Shown here piece after piece: positions 40,498 to 60,027 of a stretch of 60,027 nucleotides of DNA. The notes beneath the pieces were generated by a model that was given only the letters and a program-made list of their open reading frames with translations, was not told the origin of the DNA and did no database searches. Each line of letters starts with the position of its first letter. Within the stretch, counting starts at the first letter, position 1. Source of the DNA: Basidiobolus meristosporus CBS 931.73 (lineage: Eukaryota > Basidiobolomycota > Basidiobolomycetes > Basidiobolales > Basidiobolaceae). The translations under genes were made by a program, and so were the position numbers. The stretch is taken from the NCBI GenBank assembly GCA_002104905.1, contig MCFE01000545.1, positions 1-60,027 of the forward strand, in the 5' to 3' direction.

Positions 40498-40599
40498 ATG
40501 GTGATGGTATCTTAGATAGTGTCCTAGGCCTATCTAATCTGTCTGCTCTTTGAACTTCGGTATCTTCAGCGTTCTAATGAGTAGTCTGCTTCATTTAGC

Positions 40600-40930
40600 C
40601 CATAGGGTACCAGTATGGTCACCATGGACAAATCGGCAAGCGGTACTGTGATGAAACATTATGCAACGAGCCAGGCTGCACTGGTTAATCATTGTTGCTG
40701 CCAACACCAAGAGGTTTGTCAATGGTTGGGATCTCAATGGACCAGCAATCTATGAAAGGTAGTTGGGATATGGAAGTGAACGCCAATCAACTCTATGCGC
40801 TGCACTTACCGGATTTGGAGCGGGGTCAGATTCGGGTGCTGAGTTGCAACTAGTCTGCCACCAATCTCCGGTGCTGGAATAGCAAGTTGTTACTGTATGG
40901 TTGGCGCCAGGATCCACAAGTGAATCTGTC
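40600..40930. repeat. Left arm of an inverted repeat upstream of the synthetase
   Basis: This arm matches 41440-41770 in reverse complement: both contain GAGCGGGGTCAGATTCGGGT and AGGTAGTTGGGATATGGAAG. Similarity is high in the core and fades at both ends. Together with the synthetase copies it forms a palindrome about 5 kb across, with an unlike centre of about 500 bp. Confidence 0.88.
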
Positions 40931-41059
40931 TCATCTGTCGGGTATTATGATCGATGTCGATATCGTTTCAGTGGAAATGCTCGAGTGCAATGATAGTGAT
41001 ACAGAGAAGACACGCTGGCCAGTGGAGATGCGCCGTATTGAGTACGAAGGTCAGTATTA
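40737..41059 (+). pseudogene. Possible small gene broken by TAG, divergent from the synthetase copy
   Basis: An ATG at 40737 opens a protein-like frame (MEVNANQLYALHLPDLERGQ) that meets TAG at 40851-40853 and then stays open to TAG at 41057-41059 (SHLSGIMIDVDIVSVEMLEC, DTEKTRWPVEMRRIEYE). The right palindrome arm carries a more degraded copy in reverse, and it has the same TAG. The family is unknown, and the frame could be a chance opening. Confidence 0.3.
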
Positions 41060-41439
41060 GTTTATCCTGTTGATCACAGCTTTCACCAATAATACGCTTC
41101 AGTAATTGCCCGCAAAAGCGCGAAAATTCCACCTCTTAGCTTTTCTTGGAGCCACGATGTTTTGTCAGAACTTGGCAGTGTATTCATATTTTACAGTTAT
41201 GCATCTACTTATCCATGTATGAGGAGGAATATTTACTAGTAGTTCTGGTCAGACTTATAGTGGGTTGGTAAACACCAAAAAGGCGTGCTTTCCGTGTTTC
41301 AGAGCAAACAGAAAGAGAAATATCTATCTGCCTGACGTAATACTTGAGCTCGATATACGAGTTACGAGCGCTAATGGCCCACGAATCATAATCCCAAAGG
41401 TCTTATTATTCGCACTTTTTGCAAACGTGTTCAGGAACT

Positions 41440-41770
41440 ACACGAGATTAGTTACTCGAGGATTCTGGCGCTTATTGATAGTAATAGCTTGCTATTCCAG
41501 TACCGCAGATTGGTGGTAGACTAGTTGCAACTCAGCACCCGAATCTGACCCCGCTCCAAATCCGGTAAGTAAGTGCAGCGCATTCAGTTGATTGGCGTTC
41601 ACTTCCATATCCCAACTACCTTTCATAGATTGCTAGTCCATTGAGATCCATTGACAAACCTCTTGGTATTGGCAGCAAGCACGATTAACCAGTGCTTGGC
41701 TTGTTGCATGATGCTTTATCACAGTGCTACGCAACGATTTGTTCGCGGGGTCCATGCTGGTATCCTATGA
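41440..41770. repeat. Right arm of the inverted repeat
   Basis: Reverse-complement partner of 40600-40930. It lies 300 bp upstream of the intact synthetase start and so may carry part of its promoter. The arms differ by scattered substitutions and small gaps, so the duplication is not very recent. Confidence 0.85.
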
Positions 41771-42070
41771 GCGAGAGGAAGATAGTCAGCGGAAGTAGGC
41801 TGCTCACTTAGTCCCCAGGTTGGGCGCTACTGAAAGAATTCCACCAGGGTAGCAAGGGAGCAGTGAGGAAGTGCTGTGCTTATAAATACTCTGCTGCCAA
41901 TCCGAGTAACACTTCAGAGCATATTTCTGATTAGAGTTCAGTTTCAAGCACACACGACAACTCTTGGACCAGCGTCAAACCTCAGGTAAGTTCGAACCAT
42001 GCTAATACTCACGCTGAAGTAAGATTGAAGTCAGTTTCTGACCTTCGGTCTATACAGTCATTCTTTACAG

Positions 42071-45032
42071 ATGTCTCAACCAGGCCACAGCAGCTACACT
42101 AACACTGGCATGAAGAATTTACTGGAGATTTTGCGGGATGTGTCCACTAAATATCCCACTCATGGGATGTACTACATCAATAGCCCTGCCGACATTGCTC
42201 ATCCAACCTTTTCAAGCTACCCAAACCTTTTGGCTCAAGCCTACGCCATTGGTGAGCGTCTGAGCACACTAGTGAAGGGCGTACCTGAACAAGTGGTTGT
42301 TTTATACTTCGAGTGTCATCAGGATACAGTGGAGCATTATTGGGGCTGTTTGGCCGCTGGACTGCTTCCCTGTGTTCTTGGCACCTTGAAGGGAGATGAT
42401 GACAAGAAAGAACAGCAACTCTTGCACCTTGACACTTTGCTCAATAAGCCTGTCTTTCTCTGCCGCCAAAAGGACCATTCTGAACTTTCAAGTCTGGTAT
42501 CTGACATTCATGTCCAGGCTGTCGAGGAGCTTAGAGTTCAAAGGGCAAGCGAATTAGACTGGCCCAAGACTCCATCTACCAGCTGTTTCCAGGGCCTGGA
42601 CTTCCTCAACGAAGTGGCAGTATTACTGCTCACCTCTGGGTCTACAGGTAACTCTAAAGCAGTCGAGCTTACCCAGGGGAATATCCTTGCCTCGGCAAAC
42701 TTCAAAATCGACGACTATAATCTTCAATCAACACACACCATACTGAACTGGGTTGGTTGCGATCATGTGGCTGGACTAGTGGAGAACCACATCGTTCCAA
42801 TGGTGGCAGGGGCGAATCAGGTGCAAGTGGCAGCCTCAGTAATCACCCTGGAGCCATTATCTTTGTTGCTCATTGCGGAGGTCTATGAGGCAGCTCACAC
42901 ATTTGCCCCAAATTTCCTGCTAGCTAACATAGAAAAAGACCTAAAGAGAAAGCTGGAAGAGTCACCCATAGGCAAATCACTGTACAATCTCTCCAAGCTG
43001 AAGCGCATCAACTCTGGGGGAGAGGCCAACTTGGTGGACTTGGGTCAGCAGCTACTTCGGACTCTGGCAGAGGCTAAAACCGGGTTCACCGGTATCATTT
43101 CCCCTGGTTTTGGGATGACTGAGACATGCGCTGGCTGTGTCTATAACAAACAGTTCCCATTCAATGACATTGGAAAGGAGTTTGCTACTCTGGGTTACCC
43201 TTCACATGGGCTGTGCTTAAGAATTGTAGATAGGGAAGGCCGACCATTACCAGCAGAATTGAGTGGAGACCTGGAGGTGCATTGTCCTCAGCTCTTCAGG
43301 GGATACTTCAATAATCCTGAGGCTAATGCACAAGCCTTCACGAGCGACGGATGGTTCAGGACGGGAGACACAGCCAGTTTGGCTGGTGGTAGGTTGCATC
43401 TAATAGGAAGAACTAAGGACACCATCATTCTTCGCGGGGTGAACCACTACAGCCATGAGCTAGAAGCTGCATTACAGGATGTTCAAGGAATCGCCCCTTC
43501 CTTCGTGGCGGTTTGTCCTATCCGACCCACAGGCTCACAAACAGAGCAAATCGCCGTCTTCTACCTTCCAACATTCTCCCTGTCTGATGAGGAAACACTG
43601 ATCAGCACACATGCCAGCATCCGGCAGAAGTTGGTCATCAACTGTTCTCAAGCACCTAGTGTGATTTGCCCTCTGCCAGCAAATAGGCTTACCAAGAACT
43701 CATTGGGCAAGTTGTCACGTGGGAAGTTGAGACAGCAGTATGAGATGGGCGAGTTCAACGAATACCTGAGGATCGTCGAGCGGACCACTCAAGCGGAGAA
43801 GGCCAGGAAATGCAAGAGACCTGCCACCGAGTCTGAACTTGCTTTATCGGCATTCCTCTGCCAGATCTTCGAGGTTGCGGAGGTGTGTGTGGAAGAGAAC
43901 TTCTTCAGTATGGGCGGATCCTCACTGGAGGTTGTGCAGTAAGTGTCAGACGCTCTGGCAACTACTTAGAGACTCCAACTGATTGTCATCATTTTGTAGA
44001 TACAAAGCAAGAATAGTCAAACATTTCGACCTGGACAAGGTAACATTTTGAGTAGTAAAGTATTAGGCTATCAGCTGTCGGCTGCTTGCTAATTGTAATT
44101 TTCGTCCGAAGAACTGGCCAGTCATCCGAATCATGCAATATCCCACCATTCGGGAGTTAGCAGAGCATCTGGACACTCTCAAATCAGATGCGGGAGCCAC
44201 TCAAAGCTATGAACCTGTTGTGCCATTACAAGTGACTGGATCTGGTGTGCCGATCTTCTTCGTCCACCCTGGGGTTGGAGAGGTACTTATATTCGTCAAC
44301 CTAGCCAAGTACTTTGCGAATGAACGTCCGTTCTATGCGCTGCGAGCTCGAGGCTTCGATAACCACCCATACTTCGAGTCTATGGAGGAAATGGCTGATA
44401 TGTACACTGCAGCCATTCGCAAAACCCAGCCTCAAGGACCCTATGCTGTGGCTGGGTACTCATACGGTGGGGTGGTAGCTTTTGAGATTGCCAAACGGCT
44501 TGAGGCTCAGGGACAGAAAGTAGCCTTCGTTGGCTTGGTGAACATTCCTCCACACATCAAACCAAGGATGCTTGAGCTGGACTGGACTGAAGGATTCTTG
44601 AACCTTTCCTACTTCTTGGATCTCATTACTAAGGAGGAGGCTACCAGAGTCTCACCATACCTTCATACGCTACCTCGCGAGGAGCAGATCAACCACATCT
44701 GGTCCAAAGCCTCACCTGACCGAATCAAAGAGCTTGAGATTGATCGCACTCAGCTTGAGAAGTGGGTGGATATAGCCGAGTCACTGCTCAAATGTGGCCG
44801 GAACTATGAGCCTAATGGAACGGTAGAGCACGTTTCAGTATTCTATGCGATCCCACTGGCCGGGAAGAAGGAGGATTGGCTGAATGGGATGCTCATGAAG
44901 TGGGATGGGTTTACCCGACAGACGAACAGTTATATCGATGTGCCAGGTGCACACTACACACTGATGAACCACCATTATGTTCCCTACTTCCAAAAGTTTT
45001 TAAAGGCTGAGCTCAAAAAAGCAGGGATATGA
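42071..45032 (+). CDS. NRPS-like synthetase with A-T-TE domains
   Basis: About 950 residues in three exons (42071-43940, about 43999-44039, about 44112-45032). The adenylation domain has LLTSGSTGNSKAVELTQGN, GFGMTETCAG, GWFRTGD, LIGRTKDTIILRGVNHYSHE and the C-terminal Lys loop RLTKNSLGKLSRGKL. The carrier domain has EENFFSMGGSSLEVVQ with the phosphopantetheine Ser. The thioesterase has AGYSYGGVVAFEIA and a likely catalytic His in PGAHYTLMNHHY. No condensation domain is present. This architecture is that of fungal quinone/furanone synthetases such as atromentin synthetase, which join two aryl-pyruvates; the substrate here is not known. The leader (about 41900-42070) appears spliced. Confidence 0.9.
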
Positions 45033-46014: not shown

Positions 46015-46140
46015 TTAGTTTGCTTGCTGTTCTGGCTGTTGTTTAAGCATCTTACGTGGACAACAATCGTGATATTGTGGAGGCTCTTGGATGCTGCCTG
46101 ATATGAGGCCATAGACTGAGAGTGACGGTTGCTGTATCTT
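46015..46140 (+). pseudogene. Degraded remnant of the cysteine-rich peptide gene
   Basis: The stretch matches the intact gene at 46742 from the signal peptide through the cysteine region (TTGCTGTTCTGGCTGTTG, GTGGAGGCTCTTGGATGCTG), but it has no start codon and several stops, including TAA in the signal peptide and TGA in the cysteine region. Changes are mostly C-to-T or G-to-A. Confidence 0.75.
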
Positions 46141-46692
46141 GAGTCGACACTAATGGGCCCAAATGTCATTGCCAGTGTGCTATACTACAATGCAGTAATA
46201 TCATAAAGATATTAATGTAAGCACCAAGTCCCAGACGATACGTAGTATGCGTCACAAGTGCTTGGCTCGCTTCGAAGAGAAATTAGGGACCCCAGTGATG
46301 AATAAAAAGTATTATTGAAGATTGTAAAGAACGCACCTACCATTGAGCATGCTGCCACAGAGCACGCAAACACAATATTTTGATCCACAATCCTGGATTT
46401 TTATTCCCAAATATCAAGCTTACATCTGATAACCGGTATTTGCTATAGCTTGCGGATCACAGGTACCATTGCTGCTACCTAGCGACCTATCCAGATGTAT
46501 TCTTGGGAAAGGTTTGCTTTAGGTGACACTTGAAGCTTGGTATAAGCCACATGTGGGGAAAACATTCCCAGTATCATGATGTACGAGAGAGAGATAGTAT
46601 AACAACAATTACACCGAGAAGTCAGATGTGATTGAGACAGCATCATATATGAAAGTCAGTGCAGTTAATGTGTAATATTATTGTAAGAGAGG

Positions 46693-46698
46693 TATATA
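46693..46698 (+). promoter_or_regulatory. TATA box of the intact peptide gene
   Basis: TATATA lies 49 bp before the ATG. The second peptide copy has TATATA (48434-48439) at exactly the same distance. Confidence 0.6.
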
Positions 46699-46741
46699 AG
46701 CACGTATTTCATCTACAAAATACATCAAGTTCTCCGCTATC

Positions 46742-46912
46742 ATGAAAACCTCACTCATTACTCTGCTTGCTATTCTAGCTGTTGCTACAGCATCTCCCGT
46801 GGACAACACTCCAGGCGACGATGGGACCGTGGAGGCACTAGGATGCTGCCAAATGTGGGGCTGCGGGCCAAAGGGAGATAGATGCTGTATCATGGGAGCT
46901 TGCTTACCTTAA
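46742..46912 (+). CDS. Secreted cysteine-rich peptide precursor (intact)
   Basis: An intronless 56-residue precursor. MKTSLITLLAILAVATAS is a clear signal peptide, followed by an acidic propeptide-like segment (PVDNTPGDDGTVEALG) and a 22-residue C-terminal region with six cysteines in the order CC-x4-C-x6-CC-x4-C. The layout of signal, short acidic pro-region and disulfide-rich end resembles secreted defence, effector or venom-type peptides. I cannot assign it to a known family, and toxicity is not shown. Four other copies lie within 3 kb. The TATA box and matching upstream sequence suggest its own promoter. Confidence 0.8.
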   Translation: MKTSLITLLAILAVATASPVDNTPGDDGTVEALGCCQMWGCGPKGDRCCIMGACLP

Positions 46913-47769
46913 GCCAAGTCATCCGCAGTCGATTGATACTTTATTGGTAGAATGCTATGCCGCTTACCTTGAGCTTATTCACTACCAATGAATAAATACT
47001 TTATTGGCAGATTACTGCTGTAGCCAAATGGGTTGAATATAACATGTGCGAAAATTAAATCACACTGCTGCATTATGAGATTGGATAATACAACAGCTTT
47101 GTCCTACTATTATTATGGTTATTTTGTGAGCTATGGGAACTCTCAGGTTCAGTATTTTGCTAATTGAGCTTTATATGATTATATGCATGGAGCGTAAGAA
47201 CGTCACATTCAGAACACTTGATGTCGAGAATTTTCAGTAAGGTAAGCTGGTGTTAGGTTTGTGGTATGGGCTACGTATGAATCGCCCATTTTTGAGATTG
47301 GCATGTGTAACTTTAGCTACCTGCTTCAAGAGTGATTCAGAGTTAAATAAGGAAGTATACCAACCAATATTGATCGTTCTTCGGACAGTGGACACTGCCC
47401 ATTGTGTCAGTTGGAGTTCCATAATATTGAGTTCTCTTTGCCCTAAAATACCTTTCAAATGTAGTGCAACTGTAAATGCATGCGTGACGATATAAAGCTT
47501 GCTTTTCATTGGAGCTTTACTTGCCTAATCATTCAAGCCACTCAGTATAAGGCTCAGTGCTAGATATATTGTAAAAACAGTACTGGCAAGCTAACCTTTC
47601 CCCCATCTAGTATTTTGCTGCCCAATTCTATTGGTTAGTTTGTATCAGGTGATGTTATAAGTGTGGTATAAACTATAGGTGATTTGTGTGTTCCAGAATA
47701 GTGGTTTGTGTGTTCCAGAATAGTGGTTTGTGTGAAAGGCATGATAAGGCTAAGCATGCTCCAGTTGTA
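46913..47769. other. Intergenic within the peptide-gene cluster
   Basis: AT-rich sequence without a recognised gene. GTGGTTTGTGTGTTCCAGAA occurs twice in tandem at 47675-47730. This is the right-hand version of the block seen at 45860-45930. Confidence 0.45.
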
Positions 47770-47850
47770 TTTTGATTGGTGCCGTAACCATTGTCACAAC
47801 AACTCTAGTCGATAGTACTTCAAGTGATGGCGATGCCGTGAAGGATCCCT
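47770..47850 (+). pseudogene. Short degraded remnant of a peptide gene
   Basis: GCCGTAACCATTGTCACAAC and the following GTCGATAGTACTTCAAGTGATGGC resemble the signal-peptide and propeptide part of the intact gene. The cysteine region is missing. Confidence 0.5.
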
Positions 47851-48482
47851 TTGTTTGGTTCCAAGTTCAATAGGGGAACCCAGCAAGGAAGACCAAACAA
47901 CACTGAGTATCCTATAGAGCTTGCCTACTATTTCTCGAATTGTTGATTGGTCTTGTTGCAAGATATTGCACAAATACAACGTTTAGTTCCACAACCCTCA
48001 ACTTCTATTCCCCATAATACGTTCCGAAATTTAGAGTTGTCACAAGTACTAAACCAGTAACTGTGGAGAAATAGGATTTGACTTTGGTTAGACCGCAGTG
48101 AAGCCCCACTATGAGAATCCCTAGCAATATACATATTACTAGCCAGCTAAAGTTGTTTAACAAGCCAGCTTTACGATTGCTAATCAGTGTTGATTATATT
48201 TTGCAGCTCACAAGTGCAATTAACGATACAGAGCGTTTTGTTCAGATATATTCCTTATCAATATAAGTGTGAGGTAGTGCTTGTGATTTGGCATGAGCCA
48301 TATTGGGCTTAAACATTCCTGATATCATAATACGTGGGAGAAACATCGCGATGGCAATCACTCAAAGGAGCTAAATGTGATGGAGGTATCGTTACGGCCA
48401 ATGTGATCTAAGCTGGTACCACTGCTAGAGAAGTATATAAACGTGCATCTCACATCGTACCTGTATCAAGTACTTTGCTATC
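47851..48482. other. Duplicated upstream region of peptide copy 2
   Basis: From about 48290 this sequence matches the region upstream of the intact gene (AACATTCC...TATCAT...AC G/GGGAGA at 46560-46600). The two genes therefore arose by duplication of a unit that includes the promoter, about 1.74 kb apart. Confidence 0.5.
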
Positions 48483-48653
48483 ATGAAGATCTCGCTCATT
48501 ACTTTGCTCGCTGTGCTAGCCGTCGCTGCCGCATCTCCCGTGGACAATACTCCAGGCGATGATGGTGTTGTGGAGGCTCTTGGATGATGCCAAATGTGGG
48601 GCTGTGGACCTATGGGAGATAAATGCTGTATTATGGGAGCTTGCTTACCTTAG
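48483..48653 (+). pseudogene. Cysteine-rich peptide copy 2, in-frame TGA
   Basis: The same length and layout as the intact copy: signal peptide MKISLITLLAVLAVAAAS, acidic pro-region, cysteine region and stop TAG 48651-48653. Codon 35 (48585-48587) is TGA at the position of the first cysteine in the intact copy. The rest of the frame, the TATA box and its spacing are intact. Most likely a recent null allele. Confidence 0.82.
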
Positions 48654-48733
48654 GCCAAGTCTTTTGCAGTCAATTAATGTTTTATTGGCTCTATGTTTTG
48701 CAAGAATACAGCAGTACTAAGGTCTTGGCTATC

Positions 48734-48913
48734 ATGTGATCTTCATTCGGTGCTTTGCTTGCTGTTCTAGCTATTGTAACAGCATCTTTGGTGGACAATA
48801 CTTCCGGAGATGATGGTCCCGTGGAGGTATTAAGATGCTGCCAGATGTGGGACTGCAGACTGAAGGGTGACAAGTGCTGTGTCATGGGAGCTTGCTTACC
48901 TTGGGCTGGATAG
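48734..48913 (+). pseudogene. Cysteine-rich peptide copy 3, TGA at codon 2
   Basis: The ATG at 48734 is followed directly by TGA (48737-48739). The frame then stays open through signal-like, acidic and six-cysteine regions to TAG 48911-48913 and has three extra residues at the end. No TATA box at the family spacing is seen; copy 2 ends only 80 bp upstream. Confidence 0.8.
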
Positions 48914-49411
48914 ATAAATACTGTGCTTGCAGAGTACACTACTTTAATCAAGATATTGTTGTAAGAGTTTTGGAGATATTGGAAGTGATTGGGAGAACAA
49001 GTAGATTATGTGGTTTTCACTTAATGATTTATTGAATGTAAAAGTAGTATTTATACTTTTACATGGTCTTGGTATAGCAAACACATAGAGTAGGTTAAGG
49101 AAGATCCCAACAACATGTGTGCAAAGTTTGGGGCTGTTTGGTAACTTTAAGAATTTTCATGTTCTGGATACCTGGTATTTTGGTGAAAATATTCCAAGTA
49201 AATCCCAACAAGAGATTTGGTCAGTATTCTCTAGGATTTGAATGTAATGATCTAAGTGACTAAGTTAGGTTAATATTTAGGGGAATTACAAATTTTAACA
49301 ACAGATATGGTATGAGTACTAAATCCCTGACAATACATAGTGTCTGCTGCAAGCTAAATAGGGGAACTCAATGATGAGCCACAAGTTATATAGGGTGTTG
49401 TGGAGACTGGG
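48914..49411. other. Last unique sequence before the telomeric retrotransposon array
   Basis: AT-rich sequence with no gene recognised. It ends at GGGTTAGGGGGG (49410-49421), the first telomere-like junction. Confidence 0.45.
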
Positions 49412-51318
49412 TTAGGGGGGTGACAGGCACCAACAGGTGAAACCTTTATTTCAGCTGAAACAAAGAAGCCAGTGCTACTGTGGTAGCTTTGATACTAGAG
49501 TGTGTAGCTGAAGGGAATTTGTAGGTAAGTGAATATGGAGAGATGATAGTTCTTCTTTACTCAAGACACTATTCAGTGGGAAGGGGGGCAGCAAGAGAGG
49601 TAAGAATGATTTTTGAACAGCATTGATAAGGGGAATATGATAAGGATTGATACTCATCATAAAGGGAGTGTGCTGCTTCAGATATTGCTGCCAAAGGTCT
49701 GTCAAGTACTTCAGGTAGGCCAGCTTGGGCTTTTCTGACTGCAGAATATACTGAGCAAACTTCTTGACATCTGGATCTTCAAGTATAGTTCTCCAGAAGG
49801 ATCCGGGTGTAGTGTGGTGTGTTCTCTTCCAGGCCCTAATCAGCAGGTTGCTGCAGTGGTGAAGTTTGAGATATAATCTGGTTCTAAGATAGAGATGTCT
49901 GATCTTGTAGGGCATAAACCCAAAAGCACCAAGAATAGCATGTCTGTAGGGACATTAATGCAGATGAGGCACCAGGGAGGTAATGCACCATACTGCAAAC
50001 TTGTCAAGCTTAGTGCACTCTCTAGAAGTAAGAGGGCAAAGTGGTAAGCAAAATTCCAGGACAGGGAAGACAAACTGCTTGAGTAGAAGGAGGCAGCTGG
50101 GAGCTGAAGTTGTAGGGGGAGTAACAGCCAAGTAGCTTGTGGAGTGGTTGTCTTGCCAGGATCAATCTCTTCTTCAGGTGTGCTCCAGAGTCTAGTCCAG
50201 TAGGAAGGAATGGAAAGCCAAGATATGTAGCAGAAACCTGAGCAGGTAGAGTGCAGTTCTTTAAGTTGATAGGATGACACAAAGGTACTGTCTTTGCACT
50301 GGAAAGCTGGAGATTATTCTTCTTCAGATACTGGTGGATGCTCTGGGAGCCTTGTTGCACATTGGAGGAGGATATTCTGATGTCATCAACTAAGAGAGTA
50401 ACCAAGCTGTCAGCTGAGAGTCTTGTGAAGTCATTCAGGAAAATGGCAAATAGTATAGGACCAAGCACAGAGCCCTGAACCACTCCATTAGGAACTGAGA
50501 ACACAGTTGATTGCTCACTTGGGTGCAGAATTCTTCCTTGTGGATCCAGAAACAGAGACCTGACAAGGAGGGTGAGAGAGGTACTGGAAAAGCTTTGCAG
50601 CTTGGACCATAGCCAATTTCTGTCAACTGAATCAAAGGCCTTAGTGATATCAAACAGAACAGAGGGATACTTGCACTGTAGAGAGTGATCTTGACTCAGT
50701 ATGACTGCATATTACAAGGAGAGGCTAGGAGCAAAGCCAACCTGTGCAGGGTGAAGCTTGAGGCAGTCAGAGTAGAGCTCCTGAGCAATCAGAAGCTCAA
50801 ACACCTTTCTGCATGTGGGCAGCAGAGATATTGGTCTGTAGAGGCTGGGATCCAGGTGCTTTCCTTTCACCCTTGTACAGTGGCAGAGCATTGGTAAAGG
50901 ACCATTCTTCTGGAGTAGAAAGCTGGGCTTAGCATTGCTGAAGCAGTGGAAGTAGAAGAGCAGACATTGCCTTGGTACTAGTCTTCAGAAGCTCATACAA
51001 TATTGTGTCCACACCTGAAGCAGTAGAGTTGGGGAGCCTCTTGAGCACGTTATGGATTCTGTCTTGCTCAAGTGCAAGTGGGGTTGGCAGAGTCTTGAAA
51101 TCAGGATGAAAGCCAGGAGTTGAGTACTGCTTTGTTGAGAAGAAGATGTTGGCCAGCTGTTCTGTTGAGGGTGACTTCCTGGAGGAGGGCCTCAATGCCC
51201 TGTAGAGTCTTGACAATGTTCTTGTTATAGAGTTGGAAGATAGCAAAGGCAAAGAGCTCATAATATGGTTCCAGAGCTGAGTATACAGAGTGTGGTGAAT
51301 TGCCTTGGAGTAGTGTAT
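49412..51318 (-). mobile_element. Telomere-associated LINE, family 1, copy A (decayed)
   Basis: A non-LTR retrotransposon fragment with reverse transcriptase split over at least five frames: LSRLYRALRPSSRKSPSTEQ near 51200, QGSVLGPILFAIFLNDF (50430-50480), the catalytic segment VTLLVDDIRISSS where FADD has become LVDD (50350-50400), then KAWKRTHHTTPGSFWRTILE and the C-terminal HTLVSKLPQ. The 3' end at 49412 abuts GGTTAGGGGGG. It reaches further upstream than copies B and C and carries the most frameshifts, so it is the oldest of the three. Confidence 0.9.
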
Positions 51319-51535
51319 GGCTAAGTTAGGAGAGGGAAAGTCACCAAGTTGGTGAAATCATTACTTGAGTCAAGAACTAATCTAGGTGCAAATAAAGAAG
51401 CCAATTAAGATGTCTAGAACCACTCTAATAAGTGATCTAATTTATGTTTTGCCTCATCTCTAATGTTTGTCTCAATAAAGTAAAGCTCATCAGGGGTGAA
51501 TATAAAATTCAAGGGTTTTGGGGGAAGTACAAATT
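51319..51535 (-). mobile_element. 3'-end fragment of a telomeric retroelement
   Basis: Begins (on the plus strand) with GTTAGGAGAGGGAAAGTCACC and the hairpin TCACC-AAGTT-GGTGA, then about 200 bp of noncoding sequence. Only the 3' end was kept. It abuts copy A on the left and the next fragment on the right. Confidence 0.7.
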
Positions 51536-52484
51536 GTAGGGGAGGGAAAGTCACCAAGGTAGGTGAAATCTTTATTTGATTTCAGACAAGTCTAACTCAA
51601 ATAAAGAAGCCAGCTGGGAATAGAAGATTCCCAAAGTAAAGACTAAGTTGAATATGAATAAATCTAAGCTAAAGTTAAGGCAGTATCCCAGAGTACACTG
51701 GAGCTCAGATTCATGGGTGAGTGAAGTAGATAAGCTTGAGAGATATAACAATCTTTGAGGAAGTGGGTAACAGCAGGTGAAGGGGATTTTTTGATAAGTG
51801 AAGTGAATCTTGAAAGCAGAGATTCCTCTAATGAGAAGGTCCTGTAAACTGGAGAATCAGAAAACTCTTTAAAGGCATGGTCAGTAGGTTCCCAGTAAAA
51901 CTAGTCAGAGACATTTTGAGAGAATTGCTTAGCAATACTTTTGTCAAGTACTACCTCCAGAGTGTGATGGTTGATAAATCTCATGTTAACAATCTTGGAT
52001 ACATTGTAACCTTGTTACTTGAGATACATCCTATGCTCAGATATAGGAATAAATTCCACATTGCAAAGTAGCAGACAGCCCAGTCAGTAGCAGGAGGCAA
52101 ATCAGAGGTGGCAGGAAACTTTCCTTTAGTCTTGGGAGGAGCAGCAGGATGTCTTGAGGAAGCAGCAAAAGACTTTTTGACAGCTCCAGAGTAGGAAGAG
52201 TGAGCAGGAGCAGATGATTCTTGGGGAGTCTTGTTGGCAGGAAGAGTTGGCACAGGGATAATAGATTTCTGCAGATCAGAGAAGGCAGAAAACAGCTTTT
52301 GAACTTGTTTCTTGAGTAGAGCATTTTCAGCTTCAACAGGTGCAAGCCTTTCCTCCAGGAAAGAAATCTGAAGGGAGTGGAGTGAAGGCATAAGAAATAA
52401 GAAGAAAGAGTAGAATGGAGTGCGTGGGAGGAAAAATTAGCAGGGAGAAGAGAAGGAAGGAGCAAGATTCCAGAAGTCAGAATT
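51536..52484 (-). mobile_element. 5'-truncated element fragment with a gag-like (ORF1) frame
   Basis: The 3' end carries TCACC-AAGGTA-GGTGA and the GAAATCTTTATTT block (51549-51580). At 51981-52465 the minus strand encodes a short helical protein (LEERLAPVEAENALLKKQVQ) and a Pro/Ser/Lys-rich part (PPKTKGKFPATSDLPPATDW), as expected for an ORF1 RNA-binding protein. The 5' side ends at TTAGGGTTAGGGG (52488-52500). Confidence 0.65.
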
Positions 52485-55190
52485 TAGGGTTAGGGGTTAG
52501 AAGTCTAAATTCTTTTATTGAATCTGATCAGGTATAGTAATACTATTTCAACTTGATCTAAGTTGAAAAGTGCAAATTGTATAAAGAAGATATATCTATA
52601 GTACTGTGAAGGTAAAATACTGCTCAAGTTGAGTTGAGTTCTGAAAAGAAATTTGTCAACAAATCAGGCTAGAAAATGAAGTAAAGCTGGGAGTTATTTG
52701 AAAGCAAAGCACCAAGGGAAAGTGTAGAGCTATACTACCACTTCCTGGAAGACAGGGATCTCACAGGAAGGCAGAAGCTCAGGTCTTATTGCAGATATGA
52801 TAGCAGAAAGTCTCTGGACAAGCTCCCCTTGTTTGTGAAATTGGAACAATGATTGGGTATCTTTGCACCCAAAGCAGCTCTCTACATGAGAGAAGTAAAA
52901 ATACCTGCTACAGTAGGGGCACTTGGAACCCAAGCAAAGTGTGTTCATTCTCCACCTCATGGCCTGGAAGGCAAAGAAGGAACTCCTGATGTAAAGGGAT
53001 ATGTCTGCTCCACTATGGGAATGTCTACTCTCATGAGAAATAAGTCCAACTCTGTCTTTTGAGCTAGTAACTCTGGAGATATTCTCCAGCTTCCTTTTAT
53101 GCATTGCCACAGAGAGAGGAATATGTTCTCTAGGTGGCTTGGCACTGTTGGAGGCCAGATAATCTTTGTAACCATCAGGAAAGTGTATCTTCTTTCTCAC
53201 CAATGACTTTGGGGTGGCTTGGACTAAGTTGTTAGTAATCTTATTGCCTAAGATCTTCAAAGGATTATTGGGTGATGCTTTTGCATAGTGCTGCCAAATC
53301 TGATACCTAAAGTCTCAAATCTGATTGGCAAAGCCTCAATACCAGTCAGACTATGTATAAGCCTCTAGTATTGCCTAGAATGGTAGTCAGAAGCATTGAC
53401 TATCCAGCCAATAGCTTCTTGCTGCAGAGCTTGTAGCTTGGTAATGAGGTCAGGATCAGCAGCAAAACACATCATAGGAGCAGCATACTCCCAAGATGAC
53501 CTCACAAAGGCCTTGAATAGCTGTAGCCTAATCAGAGGATACCATCTACCCCCTTTGAGCTGTAGGAATCCCAAAGTGGCAGAAGTTCTTTGAATACACT
53601 TTTCAGTGTAAACTGCCCAAGAAATACCACTTTGACAAGTTGGGAGTCCAAGGTAGCTGTAAGAGGAAGGTTGAGGCAGAAGGGAGTTATTGAAGGAAAT
53701 ATTCCACTCTGGTGTAGGACCAATGTATGCTGATGTAGCAGTGTTTACCTCCATACCATTGGCAGTACACCATTGGCTGACTTTACTCAGCAAATGATTA
53801 GCTTCTGAGAGACTCCTAGGCAGCAATTGGATGTCATCAGCAAATAACAGTGCAGAGGGCACAGCAGCTCCTGAGTCATTGGAGCAGAGACTTTGAGCCA
53901 GGTCATCAATGTAGACATTGAGCATGATTGGTGAAAGCAAAGATCCCTGGAATAGCCCCCTGAGCCTGGGAAACGGAGATGATATCACACCATTAACACT
54001 AATAGTGGAGTAGCAGGCTGAGAAGAGTGAGTGTACAATCCTAAGAAGCTGACTGGGTACATTCTGGTTCTTTAGCTTCTTCAGGAGTATTGGGATCACT
54101 ACCCTATCATATGCTTGCTTCAGGTCAACAAAGATTCTGTGTTTTCTTCCTTCATGATCTGATAGGTAAAAAGCATCATGAAATACAACTGAATGTGTTA
54201 CAGTAGAGTAGCCGCCCCTAAAGCCAGCTTGTGCAGGATGAAACTGGGCCAAGGGGGAGTCCTTCAGGTGGTTGAGGAGGCAGGCCTTAAATATTCTTCT
54301 GAGCATTGGTGTCAAGGCAATAGGCCTGAAGCTGTCAATGGTTGATGAAGTGGACTTCTTTGGTAAAGGGTGAATGTGAGAGAGATTACACTGTGAAGGG
54401 GTAAACCCAAACCTGAGGCAATGATGAAAGAAAATCTTCAAATCATCTATGAAAGCTGCATTTCCAGCCAAAACCTTGAGAATGCATATATGAAGGGGTC
54501 CAGACCAGCAGACTTGGAAGAGGGATACTTGCTGATTGTCAGAAGAAGAGACTTGGTAGTGAACCATTGACTACCAGAGAGGGTGTCTTGCATGAAAGAC
54601 CCAAATGCTGGAGCCCAGCCATCTTTAAGGCAATGAGCAGGTGGGTATGCAAATACTTCTTGAAAGTACTTGTAAGCATCATCCACAGCAGAGATACCAG
54701 GATCTCTGGAACTGATTATTACTTCTGCCTGAGTTACCCTTTGAGCTTGCTTGAATATCACAGCAGCCTGCTGAGCAGCTGTGGCAGAGTGAAGTCTCCA
54801 AAGGGGGCACTTCTCCTAGGACCAGATTTGGCAGCATGAACTGAGTAAGTTCCCAGGTACTCCTCACAAATGACCAATACCAGGGAGTGGAAAGCAGTAT
54901 AGGCAGCACTTGGGGCAAGAAGCCAGAGTTGAATGTTTCAAATACAGTTTTGGCAGGCTCTTCTAGCCAATACCACCCCTCTGGGAGTAAGGTTGAAGCA
55001 CACTTGTCTGGAGGAATTGACATGTGGGATAAGCACAAATAGGTCTGGGTAGGTCATACAACTTATATGAAAGAGAGAAAACTAAGCTTGCACCAGTTTG
55101 GATGTAGCAGTTATGTATTAGGTAAGATAATTAGATTTTGTGGGTGGGAGTGAATATAGATGATTATATTATTTTGGAGTGAGTTAGGTT
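52485..55190 (-). mobile_element. Telomere-associated LINE, family 2 (frameshifted)
   Basis: A different non-LTR family. The reverse transcriptase lies mainly in 53365-54567: RPIALTPMLRRIFKACLLNH, FHPAQAGFRGGYSTVTHSVV, LFQGSLLSPIMLNVYIDDLA and the catalytic LLFADDIQLLPRS (intact). Upstream parts in other frames (54447-55038) include KRAQRVTQAEV-like sequence, SSKSAGLDPFIY and WELTQFMLPNL. Downstream, 52730-53260 has a zinc knuckle (CPYCSRYFYFSHVESC). At least two frameshifts and one stop break it. The 3' end, marked by AATAAAAG on the minus strand, joins CTAACCCCTAACCC at about 52488-52503. Confidence 0.9.
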
Positions 55191-55289
55191 AGTTTCCTAG
55201 GAGAGTTGGGAAGTAGGTGAAAGATGGTGTGTGATGGGTGATAGTCAATGAATGATGGGTAATGGTGAAGGTGGTAATAGTGATGGTAG

Positions 55290-55695
55290 GTTTGGTGATT
55301 TGGATGATTGGTATGGTAATGGGTGATTTGGATGTTGCGTATGGCAATGGTGGGTTTGGTGATTTAGATGTTGGGTATGGCAATAGGTGATTTGGATAAT
55401 TGGTATGGCAATAGGTGATTTGGATGATTGGTATGGCAATAGGTGATTTGGATGATTGGTATGGCAATAGGTGATTTGGATGATTGGTATGGCAATGGGT
55501 GATTTGGATGTTGGGTATGGCAATGGTGGGTTTGGTGATTTGGATGTGGGTATAGCAATGGGTGATTTGGATGTTGGGTATGGCAATGGTGGGTTTGGTG
55601 ATTTGGATGATTGGTATGGCAATGGGTGATTTGGATGTTGGGTATGGCAATGGTGGGTTTGGTGATTAGGATGGTGGGTTCAGTGATTTGGATTA
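55290..55695 (+). repeat. 28-bp minisatellite
   Basis: The unit GTATGGCAATAGGTGATTTG+GATGATTG (28 bp) is repeated about 12-14 times, with longer variants that add GGTGGGTTTG. It lies at the 5' side of LINE family 2 and yields several long spurious frames rich in SKSPI or HTNHPNH. Confidence 0.92.
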
Positions 55696-56225
55696 GACTT
55701 AATTTTATGGTAGAGAGAATGTTGATAACCTCTACTTGGTATTTGTATGGTCAGGGAGATTTTGATGGGTGTTATTCAAAAGGTTTGACAGTGTGGTGGT
55801 GTAGAGGTACTCCTGGGAGAAGCTACACAACTCAAGGTGTGTGAGGTGTCTGATGAGTGCAAGAACCTCTGGGTCTAAACTGCTTGTGTCTTTGTCAATA
55901 TGTCTCTATGGTAAAAGCTCCTGATTCTCTAGTTTCCTAGGTGTTCCAAGTGTCTCCAAAGGCCTCTGTGTGTCTTGTGCACAACCCTGAAAAGCTCCTT
56001 GATGGCAGGTCTCAGATGTACTGTTGAAGGCAGGTGCAATGATCAACTACTAATCAATAAGGGAGAAGTGTTACTGATAGAAGGGATGATTTATTGATGA
56101 GGGATTGACTTCCCTTAAATACTTTTCCAGATTGGCAAGTGATTACTAATGACAAGGTTCTAGAAGATTCCAGGCTTCAGTGAAATTCTTGATGATATCA
56201 CTGTGAGCTAAAAATATGCCAAGAA
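55696..56225. other. Unassigned subtelomeric sequence
   Basis: No coding region is recognised. It ends at AATGTTAGGGGAGG, so it may be the 5' part of an unrecognised element or of LINE family 2. Confidence 0.4.
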
Positions 56226-56455
56226 TGTTAGGGGAGGAAAGTCACCAAGTGGTGAAATCTTTATTTACTTATGACAAGTATCTAAAGAAGCCATATTAGT
56301 CTGAAGTAATTACTAGAAAGTTAGGTCTGAGAGATATCTTCCTGTTAGCCAGGTCTGAGAGTTGAGAAGCTGAGTGGTACTGTATTTCCTAGTTAGCTGG
56401 GTCTGAGAGAGGTTTCCTGGAAAGCCAGGCCTGAGAAGTGATAATCTGAGTATTT
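56226..56455 (-). mobile_element. 3'-end fragment of a telomeric retroelement
   Basis: Starts at TTAGGGGAGGAAAGTCACC with the hairpin TCACC-AAGT-GGTGA. The first 100 bp are close to the fragment at 59757-59855. The remainder contains repeats around AGCCAGG(T/C)CTGAGA. Confidence 0.75.
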
Positions 56456-56697
56456 CTTAGGGGGGGGGATGATAATCACCACAGGGTGAAATCATTATTT
56501 AAATCATAAACAAAGAAACCAAGTTTGAATATGAATATTTGAGATGCAGAAAGCCTACAAGATAAACTTGGACTTTGCTGTATCCCTAATTTCCTCAATA
56601 TCAAAGTCTAAAGGAGAATGTAGCAAAACTGCTTGTTCACTGTAGTATTTCTTGAGGAAGTTTATGACTTGAGGGTTAGGGTAGGGTTAGGGGGGGA
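56456..56697 (-). mobile_element. 3'-end fragment plus interstitial telomere repeats
   Basis: Starts at TTAGGGGGGGGGATGATAATC with the hairpin TCACC-ACAG-GGTGA and about 210 bp of noncoding sequence, then GAGGGTTAGGGTAGGGTTAG at 56671-56690. Its first part matches 59631-59722. Confidence 0.75.
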
Positions 56698-58309
56698 GAC
56701 AGTCACCAACAGGTGAAATCTATATTTCAGTTGAAACAAAGAAGCCAGCGCTACTGTTGTAGCTTTGATACAAGAGTGTGTAGCTGAGGGGAATTTGTAG
56801 GTAAGTAAATAAGAAGTGATGATAGTTCTTCAGTGCTCAAGACACTGTTCAGTGGGAAGGGGGGTAGCAAGAGAGGTAAGTATGACTTGTGAACAACATT
56901 AATGAGGGGAATGTGATAAGGATTGATATTCATCATAAAGGGAGTGTGCTGCTGCAGATATTGCTGCCAAAGGTCTGTCAAGTACTTCAGGTAGGCCAGC
57001 TTGGGTTTTTCTGACTGCAGAATATAGTGAGCAAGCTTCTTGACTTCAGGATCTCCAAGTATAGTTCTCCTGCAGGAGCCAGGTGTTGTGTGGTGTGTTC
57101 TCTTCCAGGCCTTAATCAGTGGGTTGTTGCAGTGGTGAAGTCTGAGATATAATCTGGTTCTAAGGTAGAGAAGTCTGATCTTATAGGGCATAAACCCAAA
57201 AGCACCAAGAATAGCATGTCTGTAGGGGCATTCAGGCAAATGAGGCACCAAGGAGGTAATGCACCATACTGCAAACTTGTCAAGCTTAGTGCAGTCTCTA
57301 GAAGTAAGAGAGAGAAGTGGTAAGCCAAATTCCTGGACAGGTAAGACAAACTGCTTGAGTAGAAGAAGGCAGCTGGGAGCTGAAGTTGTAGGAGGAGTAA
57401 CAGCCAGTAGCTTGTGGAGTGCCTGTCTTGCCAGGATAATTCTCTTCTTCAGGTGTGCTCCAGAGTCTAGTCCAGTAGGAAGGAAAGGAAAGCCAAGATA
57501 TGTAGCAGAAACCTGAGCAGGTAGAGTGGAGTTCTCTAAGTTGATGGGAGAGCCCAAAGGTACTGTCTTTGCAATGGAAAGCTGGAGATTATTCTTCTGC
57601 AGATACTGGTGGATGGTCTGGGAGTCTTGTTGCACATTGGAGGAGGATATTCTGATGTCATCAGCAAAGAGAGTAACCAGGCAGTCAGCTGAGAGTCTTG
57701 GGAAATCATTCAGGAAGATGGCAAACAGTATAGGACCAAGCACAGAGCCTTGAACCACTCCATTAGGAACTGAGAACACAGCTGATTGCTCACTTGGGTG
57801 CAGAATTCTTGCTTGTGGATCCAGAAACAGAGACCTGACAAGGAGGGTGAGAGAGGTACTGGAGAAGCATTGCAACTTGGACCAAAGCAGATTTCTGTCA
57901 ACTGAATCAAAGGTCTTAGTAATATCAAACAGAACTGAGGGATACTTGCACTGGAGAGAGTGATCTTGGCTAAGTATGACTGCATATTCCAAGGAGAGGC
58001 CAGGAACAAAGCCAAACTGTGCAGGATGAAACTTGAGGGAGTCAGAGTAGAGCTCCTGAGCAAGCAGAAGATCAAACACCTTTCTGCAGGTGGGTAGCAG
58101 AGATATTGGCCTGTAGGAGCTAGGATCCAGGTGCTTTCCTTTACCCTTGTACAGTGGCAGAACATTTGCAAAGCACCATTCCTCAGGAGTAGAAAGCTGG
58201 GCTGAGCATTGCTGAAACAGTGGAAGCAGAAGTGCAGACATGGCTTTGGTACTAGTCTTCAGAAGCTCATAGGAGATTGTGTCCACACCTGAAGCAGTAG
58301 AGTTGGGGA
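56698..58309 (-). mobile_element. Telomere-associated LINE, family 1, copy B
   Basis: One 511-residue frame (56751-58286) covers the reverse transcriptase and C-terminus: YRPISLLPTCRKVFDLLLAQ, FDITKTFDSVDRNLLWSKLQ, VVQGSVLGPILFAIFLNDF, the catalytic LFADDIRISSS (intact), AVTPPTTSAPSCLLLLKQF and ending HTLVSKLQQ. Truncated at the 5' side directly into GGGTTAGGGGG at 58310. The 3' side has the hairpin and G tract at 56690-56730. Confidence 0.93.
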
Positions 58310-59632
58310 GGGTTAGGGGGGGAGACAGTCACCAACAGGTGAAATCTTTATTTCAGTTGAAACAAAGAAGCCAGCGCTACTGTTGTAGCTTTGATACAAG
58401 AGTGTGTAGCTGAAGGGAATTTGTAGGTAAGTTAATAAGAAGTGATGATAGTTCTTCAGTGCTCAACACACTGTTCAGTGGGAAGGGGGGTAGCAAGAGA
58501 GGTAAGAATGACTTGTGAACAACATTAATGAGGGGAATGTGATAAGGATTGATATTCATCATAAAGGGAGTGTGCTGCTGCAGATATTGCTGCCAAAGGT
58601 CTGTCAAGTACTTCAGGTAGGCCAGCTTGGGTTTTTCTGACTGCAGAATAAATTCAGCAAACTTCTTGACTTCAGGATCTCCAAGTATAGTTCTCCAGCA
58701 GGAGCCAGGTGTTGTGTGGTATGTTCTCTTCCAGGCCTTAATTAGTGGGTAGTTGCAGTTGTGAAGTCTGAGGTATAATCTGGTTCTAAGGTAGAGAAGT
58801 CTGATCTTGTAGGGCATAAACCCAAAAGCACCAAGAATAGCATGTCTGTAGGGGCATTCAGGCAAATGAGGCACCAAGGAGGTAATGCACCATACTGCAA
58901 ACTTGTCAAGCTTAGTGCAGTCTCTAGAAGTAAGAGAGAGAAGTGGTAAGCCAAATTCCAGGACAGGGAAGACAAATTGCTTGAGTAGAAGGAGGCAGCT
59001 TGGAGCTGAAGTTGTAGGAGGAGTAACAGCCAGCAGCTTGTGGAGTGCCTGTCTTGCCATGATAATTCTCTTCTTCAGGTGTGCTCCAGAGTCTAGTCCA
59101 GTAGGAAGGAAAGGAAAGCCAAGATATGTAGCAGAAACCTGAGCAGGTAGAGTGGAGTTCTCTAAGTTGATGGGAGAGCCCAAAGGTACTGTCTTTGCAA
59201 TGGAAAGCTGGAGATTATTCTTCTGCAGATACTGGTGGATGGTCTGGGAGTCTTGTTGCACATTGGAGGAGGATATTCTGATGTCATCAGCAAAGAGAGT
59301 AACCAGGCAGTCAGCTGAGAGTCTTGGGAAATCATTCAGGAAGATGGCAAACAGTATAGGACCAAGCACAGAGCCTTGAACCACTCCATTAGGAACTGAG
59401 AACACAGCTGATTGCTCACTTGGGTGCAGAATTCTTGCTTGTGGATCCAGAAACAGAGACCTGACAAGGAGGGTGAGAGAGGTACTGGAGAAGCATTGCA
59501 ACTTGGACCAAAGCAGATTTCTGTCAACTGAATCAAAGGTCTTAGTAATATCAAACAGAACTGAGGGATACTTGCACTGGAGAGAGTGATCTTGGCTAAG
59601 TATGACTGCATATTACAAGGAGAGGCTAGGAG
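58310..59632 (-). mobile_element. Telomere-associated LINE, family 1, copy C
   Basis: Nearly identical to copy B along its whole length but cut further downstream at its 5' side, within AGGAGAGGCTAGGAGGGTTA (59617-59636). A 374-residue frame (58377-59501) keeps FADD and the C-terminus. The 3' end at 58310-58350 shows GGTTAGGGGGGGAGACAGTC and the hairpin TCACC-AACA-GGTGA. Confidence 0.93.
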
Positions 59633-59722
59633 GGTTAGGGGGATGATCATCACCAAAGGGTGAAATCTTTATTTAAATAATAAATAAAGAAGCCAAGTTT
59701 GAATATGAATATCTGAGATTCA
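59633..59722 (-). mobile_element. Short 3'-end fragment between telomere repeats
   Basis: About 90 bp with GGGTTAGGGGGATGATCATC, hairpin TCACC-AAAG-GGTGA and GAAATCTTTATTT, ending in GATTCAGGGTTAGGG. Confidence 0.8.
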
Positions 59723-59756
59723 GGGTTAGGGTTAGGAGGGTTAGGGTTAGGAGGGG
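59723..59756 (+). repeat. Interstitial telomere repeats
   Basis: Four TTAGGG units, some with an inserted A (TTAGGAGGG), separate two short element fragments. Confidence 0.85.
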
Positions 59757-59855
59757 GGGATGAAAGTCACCAAGTGGTGAAATCTTTATTTACTTATGAC
59801 AAGTATCTAAAGAAGCCAAGTTAATCTGAAGTTATTCCTAGAAAGCTAGGTCTGA
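59757..59855 (-). mobile_element. Distal-most 3'-end fragment
   Basis: About 100 bp with G tract, hairpin TCACC-AAGT-GGTGA and GAAATCTTTATTT, joined directly to the terminal telomere at TCTGAGGGTTAGGG. Confidence 0.82.
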
Positions 59856-60027
59856 GGGTTAGGGTTAGGGTTAGGGTTAGGGTTAGGGTTAGGGTAGGGT
59901 TAGGGTTAGGGTTAGGGTTAGGTTAGGGTTAGGGTTAGGGTTAGGGTTAGGGTTAGGGTTAGGGTTAGGGTTAGGGTTAGGGTTAGGGTTAGGGTTAGGG
60001 TTAGGGTTAGGGTTAGGGTTAGGTTAG
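59856..60027 (+). repeat. Telomere, (TTAGGG)n
   Basis: About 28 TTAGGG units with three or four single-base deletions (TAGGG, TTAGG). The G-rich strand runs toward the right edge, so this is a true right chromosome end or its immediate start. Confidence 0.97.

Follow-up and report, generated by a model that had tools for sequence, protein, structure and literature searches.

Retroelements and telomerase appear to share the building of chromosome ends in Basidiobolus meristosporus

The window, a whole contig (C808) of Basidiobolus meristosporus CBS 931.73 comprising 60,027 nt, closes with 10.6 kb in which ten element pieces on one strand are followed by a (TTAGGG)n cap. From inner to outer, the pieces occupy 49,421–59,854 in the order A, E2, E, B, C, D, A, A, D, C; all lie on the minus strand, and the fillers, tandem repeat and cap are given on the plus strand. 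A telomeric filler identified by sequence, GGGTTAGGGGGG (49,409–49,420), joins the innermost element to subtelomeric DNA. An ordinary repeat of the window (48,956–49,304) occurs in both orientations within single regions, for example on contigs C25, C3, C558 and C523. The array begins with a decayed, 5'-truncated piece of LINE A, its 3' end inward (49,421–51,325; ~92% identical by blastn to A of C543, and seen in its ORFs), followed by the E2 piece, which has an E-like 3' end and a degenerate telomeric join, TTAGGAGAGGG (51,326–51,536), and by an ORF1-only E element whose frame is broken here and whose 3' join reads TAGGGG (51,537–52,482; 94% to E of C679, with ORF1 homology). Beyond a filler, TTTAGGGTTAGGGG (52,483–52,496), lies LINE B, with a reverse transcriptase (RT) and a C-terminal Cys-His motif (52,497–54,716, the 5' limit being provisional; RVT_1 at 2.5e-28, homology to B of C543), and on its 5' side a 64-bp tandem repeat found by TRF (55,283–55,683). 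A SINE-like C piece (56,227–56,456; 92% to C; 3' telomeric join GTTAGGGG) and a piece of D, an ORF1-only family (56,457–56,672; 94% to D of C595; 3' telomeric join TTAGGGGGGGGG), come next, both 5'-truncated. Past the filler GGGTTAGGGTAGGGTTAGGGGGGG (56,673–56,696), a second A piece, truncated at A position ~1990 (56,697–58,309; 98.6% to A, RVT_1 at 2.8e-24), holds an RT ORF of 511 aa (56,751–58,286); past GGGTTAGGGGGGG (58,310–58,322), a third, truncated at A position 2295 (58,323–59,631; ORF and blast match to A), holds an ORF of 374 aa (58,377–59,501). Outermost are the filler GGGTTAGGGGG (59,632–59,642), a 5'-truncated D piece (59,643–59,722), a 37-nt filler with variant units, GGGTTAGGGTTAGGAGGGTTAGGGTTAGGAGGGGGGG (59,723–59,759), a 5'-truncated C piece (59,760–59,854; 97% to C) and 173 nt of terminal (TTAGGG)n at the end of the contig (59,855–60,027).

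An initial annotation of this DNA had described the last 10.6 kb as coding on the minus strand only, with at least nine pieces joined at their 3' ends to telomere-like sequence and most cut at their 5' sides by telomere repeats. Every listed ORF of at least 120 aa beyond 49,412 is indeed on the minus strand. G-rich telomere-like sequence adjoins the 3' end of all ten pieces; TTAGGG is intact at eight of these joins, while those of E2 (51,326) and E (51,537) carry only TTAGGAGAGGG or TAGGGGAGGG. Most pieces are 5'-truncated and stop where the following filler, or the terminal tract, begins.

The annotation had also named two LINE families alongside real TTAGGG caps, which is right but incomplete: judged by sequence, the element set is LINEs A and B plus three partners, C, D and E, that carry A's predicted two-hairpin 3' end. 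Both LINEs match RVT_1 as well as non-LTR proteins. The combination of APE-type endonuclease and RT in ORF2 is clear in B, whose PF03372 match exceeds the Pfam cut-off, and scores more weakly in A, whose PF14529 match reaches the cut-off in a relative, P0006, but stays under it in the A copy that was read. These APE-type domains are N-terminal; no C-terminal REL endonuclease was found in B or A, and inspection by eye of the region after the Cys-His motif of B showed no RHD block. Copies of A with long open ORF2 stretches, diverged by 1–3% from the window copy, occur at many places. The 3' ends of A, C, D and E are C-tracts. That of B lacks the A-type hairpin, and the two B 3' ends examined have no poly(A). 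D and E, both ORF1-only, share A's 3' structure; the hairpins score z values of -2.45 to -3.68, and one stem pair is C-G in A, A-U in D and G-C in E. The D ORF1 is intact in two copies (dN/dS 0.17) and has a homolog in B. ranarum; LINE B has relatives in Smittium. C has the 3' tail of a LINE, matching A over 25 nt at 96% and bearing the same two hairpins, together with a putative Pol III promoter. Scored against the consensus boxes A and B, its box A has 1 mismatch and its box B is exact, with starts 43 nt apart, and 3 of 20,000 random 190-mers score as well; neither ARAGORN nor Rfam reported a tRNA in the given C loci. The genome also encodes a TERT RNA-binding domain (contig C880).

We searched the B. 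meristosporus assembly (89.0 Mb, 1,311 contigs) for the conserved 3'-end motif TCACCNNNNGGTGAAATC and obtained 1,224 + 107 = 1,331 matches. TTAGGG stands 2–14 nt before the motif in 1,029 + 73 pattern matches, or ~80% of 3' ends, a tally in which a few places are counted twice (4 second matches in the first 100 rows); among the matches listed, it precedes the motif at 82 of the first 100 places. CCCTAA at the same distance gave 0 matches in the whole genome, as did reversed-pattern controls for the motif, TTAGGG and CCCTAA scans. Because motif and TTAGGG recur genome-wide, the layout of the window is not due to chance: one-way retroelement stacks at chromosome ends are a genuine, genome-wide feature.

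Position and orientation are equally regular. Among the matches listed on contigs 40 kb or longer, all 32 of the 3' ends, all 60 SINE-like heads and all 14 copies of LINE B lie near the contig end that their own 5' side faces, at most 18.4 kb from it; the chance expectation per place is 0.10, 0.14 and 0.23, respectively. Three contigs (C424, C291 and C591) hold oppositely directed copies at their two ends. A separate search gave a locus for 30 of 41 rows, 25 of them on contigs in this same size class, and two of these 25 copies are internal (C558 and C726). The C558 copy belongs to a same-orientation mini-array with telomeric joins and is a relic or a misjoin. Apart from these two exceptions, the families were confined to telomeric sequence in our samples. 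The expectation that they occur only at ends with their 3' ends inward thus held, and the many randomly oriented internal copies that would have contradicted it were not seen.

Parsed strictly, the telomeric filler across 96 joins has a median length of 11 nt and a maximum of 30; two fillers are longer once variant units are counted, at 37 nt (window) and ~46 nt (C1158:2919). Terminal caps, by comparison, measure 173, 217 and 196 nt. Only 13 A ends are preceded by three uninterrupted repeats, against 645 A ends. Of the 96 joins, 95 are distinct, and 5' truncation points are dispersed along A, C, D and E; at C2:259,994–260,234, a possible local duplication with a spacing of 120, the same truncation point occurs twice with different fillers. 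TTA, TTTA or TA precedes the last G-run in 81 of 96 joins, and the phase of the 3' join is therefore nearly fixed, while fillers start in mixed phases. In 91 of 100 rows listed, SINE-like heads meet TTAGGG in a single phase, a count for which the pattern demands AGGG within 6 nt of the head; that list lacks at least 7 of the 100 heads given first by another search. In about 30 joins, no more than 18 nt separate an element from DNA that the element library does not contain, as expected if broken ends get healed. At C22:17669 and C2:254355, remnants of A extend only ~4 and 15 nt past the G-run and look like aborted or eroded additions.

On balance, we favor the interpretation that the end of the window is a telomere that several retroelement families dedicated to telomeres have built together, through serial end-primed addition and telomerase capping. 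LINEs A and B, with their APE-type endonuclease and RT, would be the putative motors, and A's enzyme would probably mobilise the RNAs of C, D and E in trans through the shared 3' end. The RNAs of A, C, D and E would end in a pyrimidine tail closing in a C-tract, which could pair with the telomeric G strand at its GGG-3' end, so that cDNA would grow outward from the 3'-OH there; such priming would set the inward direction of the element 3' ends. Most additions would take place on nearly bare ends with zero to two telomere repeats, either eroded or freshly healed. The new 5' end would later be truncated, receive a short stretch of letters from telomerase as it heals, and then be open to further extension; ~170–220 nt of TTAGGG would cap the element lying outermost. 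The 7 of 96 joins with fewer than 5 telomeric nt count against this explanation, as do the two internal copies.

That element RNA is reverse transcribed straight onto a chromosome 3' end, as the initial annotation proposed, is the better-supported version of events but is unproven, since nicking of the G strand by an endonuclease would lead to the same orientation. In an insertion resembling that of SART or MoTeR, the APE endonuclease of these elements could nick the G strand of an existing telomere at GGG^TTA and cDNA could be primed there; later loss of long internal tracts by breakage or slippage would leave short fillers. We regard this as a possible though rather doubtful account. The APE domain of B, and more weakly of A, speaks for it, since priming from chromosome ends alone would make one unnecessary; so do the nearly fixed 3' join phase and the single phase of the SINE-like heads, which is compatible with a clean cut at GGG^TTAGGG. 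APE-type telomere insertion has a precedent in SART1/TRAS1, in the account given in parts of PMC7265360. A fixed nick, however, predicts one 5' phase, and filler starts are mixed; moreover, none of 96 fillers exceeds ~46 nt although caps reach 173–217 nt, and the ~30 short joins to non-library DNA fit poorly. Portions of PMC7367193 describe long internal tracts as unstable in MoTeR, those above ~three repeats breaking in Magnaporthe, so short fillers here may mirror survival rather than origin.

Much less probable is that recombination or break-induced replication between ends spread the arrays while transposition was rare and old. MoTeR arrays do show tandem duplication as well as break-induced replication (PMC7367193, in part), and the C2 locus may be a local duplication; the distinct joins, scattered truncation points and little-diverged A copies with long open ORF2 nevertheless argue against it. 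It is very improbable that misjoined telomere-bearing reads or a collapsed repeat produced the pattern: the many short contigs (~10–20 kb), the strong strand bias of contig orientation and the two internal copies are what such an artefact might leave, but the same anatomy recurs on dozens of contigs, three contigs have copies at each end that face opposite ways, and ORF1 homologs exist in another species. Subtelomeres are rich in transposable elements in many genomes, and these could be ordinary dispersed LINEs and SINEs tolerated near ends; yet their orientation is fixed and their joins are telomeric, while the ordinary repeat inward of the array sits, by contrast, in both orientations, and we consider this reading similarly remote.

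In Drosophila, HeT-A, TART and TAHRE form head-to-tail arrays at chromosome ends with 3' ends inward and 5' truncation, and gag (ORF1)-only elements accompany RT-bearing ones. The B. meristosporus arrays resemble them in terminal position (two internal exceptions of 25), inward 3' ends and ORF1-only families beside RT-bearing ones, D and E being HeT-A-like in their apparent logic. In contrast to the Drosophila elements, four B. meristosporus families have a C-tract instead of poly(A); the fungal elements also include a SINE-like partner and are spaced by short telomeric filler. Drosophila has neither telomeric repeats nor telomerase (PMC7265360, in part), whereas B. meristosporus keeps (TTAGGG)n caps and a TERT domain. 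With SART1 and TRAS1 (Bombyx, R1 clade) it shares APE-type LINEs tied to telomere repeats and more than one family per genome, but its host is a fungus, its fillers mostly hold 0–2 repeats and its 3' ends lack the poly(A) of SART/TRAS; all its families point one way, while the insertion orientations of SART and TRAS differ (PMC7265360, in part). MoTeR1/2, FoTeR and Cnl1, fungal elements of the CRE clade, are likewise telomeric non-LTR elements with short joins, truncated copies and VNTRs, and MoTeR2 is a second element sharing a 3' border (PMC7367193, in part), much like the shared 3' ends here. They belong to a single RT clade and encode a C-terminal REL endonuclease (PMC12857005). B and A differ in their N-terminal APE-type domain, and the non-autonomous partners in B. 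meristosporus are ORF1-only or SINE-like. In the eel pair UnaL2/UnaSINE1, the non-autonomous RNA bears the 3' structure of the LINE, the hairpin being shared; the B. meristosporus pair differs in that, across our samples, it is confined to the ends of chromosomes. Endonuclease-deficient Penelope-like elements such as Athena also attach to telomeric 3' ends; A and B differ from them in having an APE-type domain and in their matches to RVT_1 and non-LTR proteins. Athena is listed in PMC10088271. By their sequence features, the telomeric LINEs of B. meristosporus fall outside the CRE clade, to which the other fungal telomeric LINEs belong.

If end-primed addition is correct, telomere-building retroelements arose independently in fungi, outside the CRE clade of the other fungal examples in the literature consulted, in an early-diverging host lineage that still has telomeric repeats. 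Tentatively, the chromosome ends may be lengthened by a mixed system in which C-tract RNAs serve as long alternative templates to telomerase RNA. The LINE RT would copy RNAs of all three kinds (LINE, ORF1-only and SINE-like) directly onto GGG-3' ends that are almost bare, telomerase would be limited to seeding and capping, and the elements may be kept for this service. Hundreds of sequenced joins in one genome make the long-standing question of nick or natural end testable. Such a guild, in which LINEs are joined at chromosome ends by gag-only and SINE-like partners, is apparently without counterpart in the literature lists of telomeric elements consulted and would bear on how Drosophila-type telomeres evolve while telomerase is still present.

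Contig C808, one of 1,311 in an assembly of 89,006,234 bases, makes up the entire window; its right end is a 173-nt (TTAGGG)n tract. From 49.4 kb to the contig end, all listed open reading frames of at least 120 amino acids lie on the minus strand, and ten consecutive element pieces point their 3' ends inward along the chromosome, in the order A, E2, E, B, C, D, A, A, D, C (A and B are LINEs, D and E carry only ORF1, C is SINE-like, and E2 is a piece with an E-like 3' end). G-rich telomere-like DNA lies under each 3' end, with intact TTAGGG in 8 of the 10, and the 5' side of most pieces is cut, again at telomeric letters. The initial annotation was accurate in describing a one-strand array with 3' ends inward on telomere-like sequence and 5' cuts at telomere letters. 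A 64-bp VNTR at 55283–55683, on the 5' side of LINE B, is reminiscent of the upstream VNTRs of FoTeR.

The DNA on the inward side of the array has features of its own. An ordinary dispersed repeat of ~350 nt (48956–49304) adjoins the array; many of the sampled regions carry copies, and both orientations occur within five of them, whereas the orientation of A to E is fixed. At 46019–48902 a short repeat unit recurs in divergent form (families D8–D12, up to four copies), with frames that, judged by eye, resemble signal peptides; small secreted proteins of a subtelomeric family may be encoded here. Frames with AMP-binding (PF00501) and thioesterase (PF00975) domains at 40012–45032 form an NRPS-like subtelomeric locus, and the first of them, the AMP-binding frame, is partly repeated at 40012–40485 as an inverted near-copy.

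Position and orientation were assessed in one assembly, sampled in stretches, with places listed for the first 100 results of each search. Whole-genome pattern searches for the 3'-end motif TCACCNNNNGGTGAAATC gave 1,224 forward and 107 reverse matches, a strand bias that follows that of the telomere repeat (6,568 forward and 68 reverse overlapping matches). Telomere repeats are thus nearly all on one strand of the contigs, mostly at right ends, an assembly bias. TTAGGG stood 2–14 nt before the motif in 1,029 plus 73 matches genome-wide (4 of the first 100 rows being the second match of one place), CCCTAA at the same distance in none; among the first 100 3'-end places listed, TTAGGG preceded 82.

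On contigs of at least 40 kb, a place was taken to fit if it lay near the contig end faced by the element's 5' side. Within 18.4 kb of that end were 32 of 32 motif places (a subset of the first 100 listed), 60 of 60 C heads (contig size being known for 86 of the 100 rows listed) and 14 of 14 LINE B matches (19 found in all), against chance expectations per place of 0.10, 0.14 and 0.23, respectively. A separate search for LINE A listed 41 places, 30 with a locus and 25 on contigs of this size, 23 of which fit; the other two, C558:97,675 and C726:58,985, are internal. The proposal that these families occur only at chromosome ends, always 3' inward, therefore held throughout the first three samples and failed at two of 25 LINE A places. 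Around C558:97,675, the stretch C558:92001–104000 holds an internal mini-array of C, D, A and E in one orientation with telomeric joins, a layout that suggests either an internalised relic or a misjoin. Three contigs, C424 (312,558), C291 (160,813) and C591 (205,623), carry copies at both ends in opposite directions; at 160–313 kb they look like very small complete chromosomes, which suggests a high chromosome number.

The two LINEs are distinct, with 28% identity between their reverse transcriptases (RTs), which fall in separate clades of a tree to be read with caution as to branch support. A profile search identified an RT domain (PF00078) in LINE A, and the APE-type endonuclease PF14529 scored below the Pfam cut-off in the copy of contig C543 (4.5e-5) and at the cut-off in a relative, P0006 (27.5 bits vs 27.4). 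ORF2 stays open for ~900 codons in copies on contigs C1 and C2, whose frames as printed continue into the neighbour or telomere. All three copies examined (L091 ~4535–4560, C1 and C2; aligned by eye) read CLIDVQ, with Asp where APE endonucleases usually have Glu, a substitution that may affect nicking activity. In the annotated B. meristosporus protein P0001, LINE A-like sequence is fused to a match to carnitine acyltransferase, which may reflect a gene model wrongly drawn across an element. In LINE B, the C543 copy is open over 1,007 codons and holds the endonuclease PF03372 over cut-off and a PF00078 RT; this copy is 58% identical to the window's B in the RT region, and a full-length relative occurs in Smittium mucronatum (37%).

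D and E, each ~0.9–1 kb, encode ORF1 as their sole recognisable protein, sharing 106 of 234 aligned residues. The 266-aa ORF1 of D is intact in two copies that differ by 29 synonymous and 19 non-synonymous changes (dN/dS 0.17); one pair of E gives 0.47. D has a match in a 269-aa protein of B. ranarum (60% over 99% of its length). In the predicted model of this protein, a long N-terminal helix is followed by a disordered linker, then by a beta-alpha-beta-beta-alpha-beta domain and helices at the C-terminus; its structural matches are RRM-like only and middling, and the layout tentatively resembles that of L1 ORF1p. Within its first 65 nt, element C (~515 nt) carries a box A with one mismatch and a box B without any. 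Its 22-nt head was found in 207 copies genome-wide, and a related pattern requiring AGGG within 6 nt gave 192 matches, with an exact join of GG to TTAGGG in 91 of the 100 rows listed; since 7 or more of the first 100 heads are absent from the latter list, this join is the rule but has exceptions.

A, C, D and E share an RNA 3' end: their last 50–70 nt fold into two hairpins, followed by a pyrimidine tail whose last letter is C. Four window copies have folding energies 2.45 to 3.68 standard deviations below those of shuffled sequences. All 37 distinct rows have the same second stem, UCACC/GGUGA, and the step-8 pair of the first stem is C-G in 7 of 10 distinct rows of A (U-G in two, C-A in one), A-U in 4 of 4 of D, and G-C in 12 of 13 of E (A-U in one), a compensatory difference between the families. 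The final G-run is mostly 4 in E (11/19), 5–6 in C (16/23) and 6–7 in A (33/48), as would be seen if each RNA's C-tract were copied into part of the run. LINE B ends without the A-type hairpin; its two observed 3' ends, ...CTAGAA and ...CTTCTAA, meet CCCTAA or CCCCTAA directly.

Given the orientation, first-strand cDNA is continuous with the G-rich strand and hence primed from that strand's 3'-OH, which could be a natural chromosome end or a nick. We parsed 96 joins in 43 regions (216,572 bases including the window), 95 of them distinct. Strictly parsed telomeric fillers have a median of 11 nt and a maximum of 30, with seven below 5 nt; counting variant units, two exceed 30 nt, at 37 nt (window 59,723–59,759) and ~46 nt (C1158:2919). 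Terminal tracts in three contigs measure 173, 217 and 196 nt. Three uninterrupted TTAGGG units precede only 13 A ends genome-wide, versus 645 A ends by a slightly different pattern. In 39 of the joins the inward partner has no sequence (one), is a short element or telomere remnant (several) or is DNA outside the element library (~30, with at most 18 nt of telomeric letters between); two remnants are A ends that extend past the G-run by just ~4 and ~15 nt (C22:17669 and C2:254355).

The short fillers, their mixed start phases, the few-letter joins to non-library DNA, the tiny remnants and the scarcity of long tracts in internal positions speak for addition to ends that are almost bare. An endonuclease nick is a less probable source of the 3'-OH, though one to be taken seriously: it draws support from the APE domain in the LINEs, the almost fixed phase of the 3' join, and the breakage of long internal tracts in MoTeR, where tracts of more than ~3 repeats break and stable ends carry two at most (PMC7367193). 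Addition to nearly bare ends, our preferred reading, would operate alongside telomerase, which is very probably present: two adjacent pieces of a TERT RNA-binding domain on contig C880 score over the curated cut-off, one reading through a TAG, perhaps an intron edge.

Among known relatives, MoTeR1, Cnl1 and FoTeR are described in PMC12857005 as one clade of fungal telomeric non-LTR elements with REL endonucleases. In Bombyx, SART1 and TRAS1 differ in the orientation of their insertion, and SART1 combines an APE-like endonuclease with a poly(A) tail (PMC7265360). A 2023 survey covers insects, Giardia, Chlorella, anole, Magnaporthe and rotifers; Basidiobolus is absent from the passages that name these cases, and the word SINE from the text (PMC10088271). 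The Basidiobolus system works like HeT-A/TART and like SART, but from each of HeT-A/TART, SART/TRAS and MoTeR/FoTeR/Cnl1 it departs in at least one tested defining feature.
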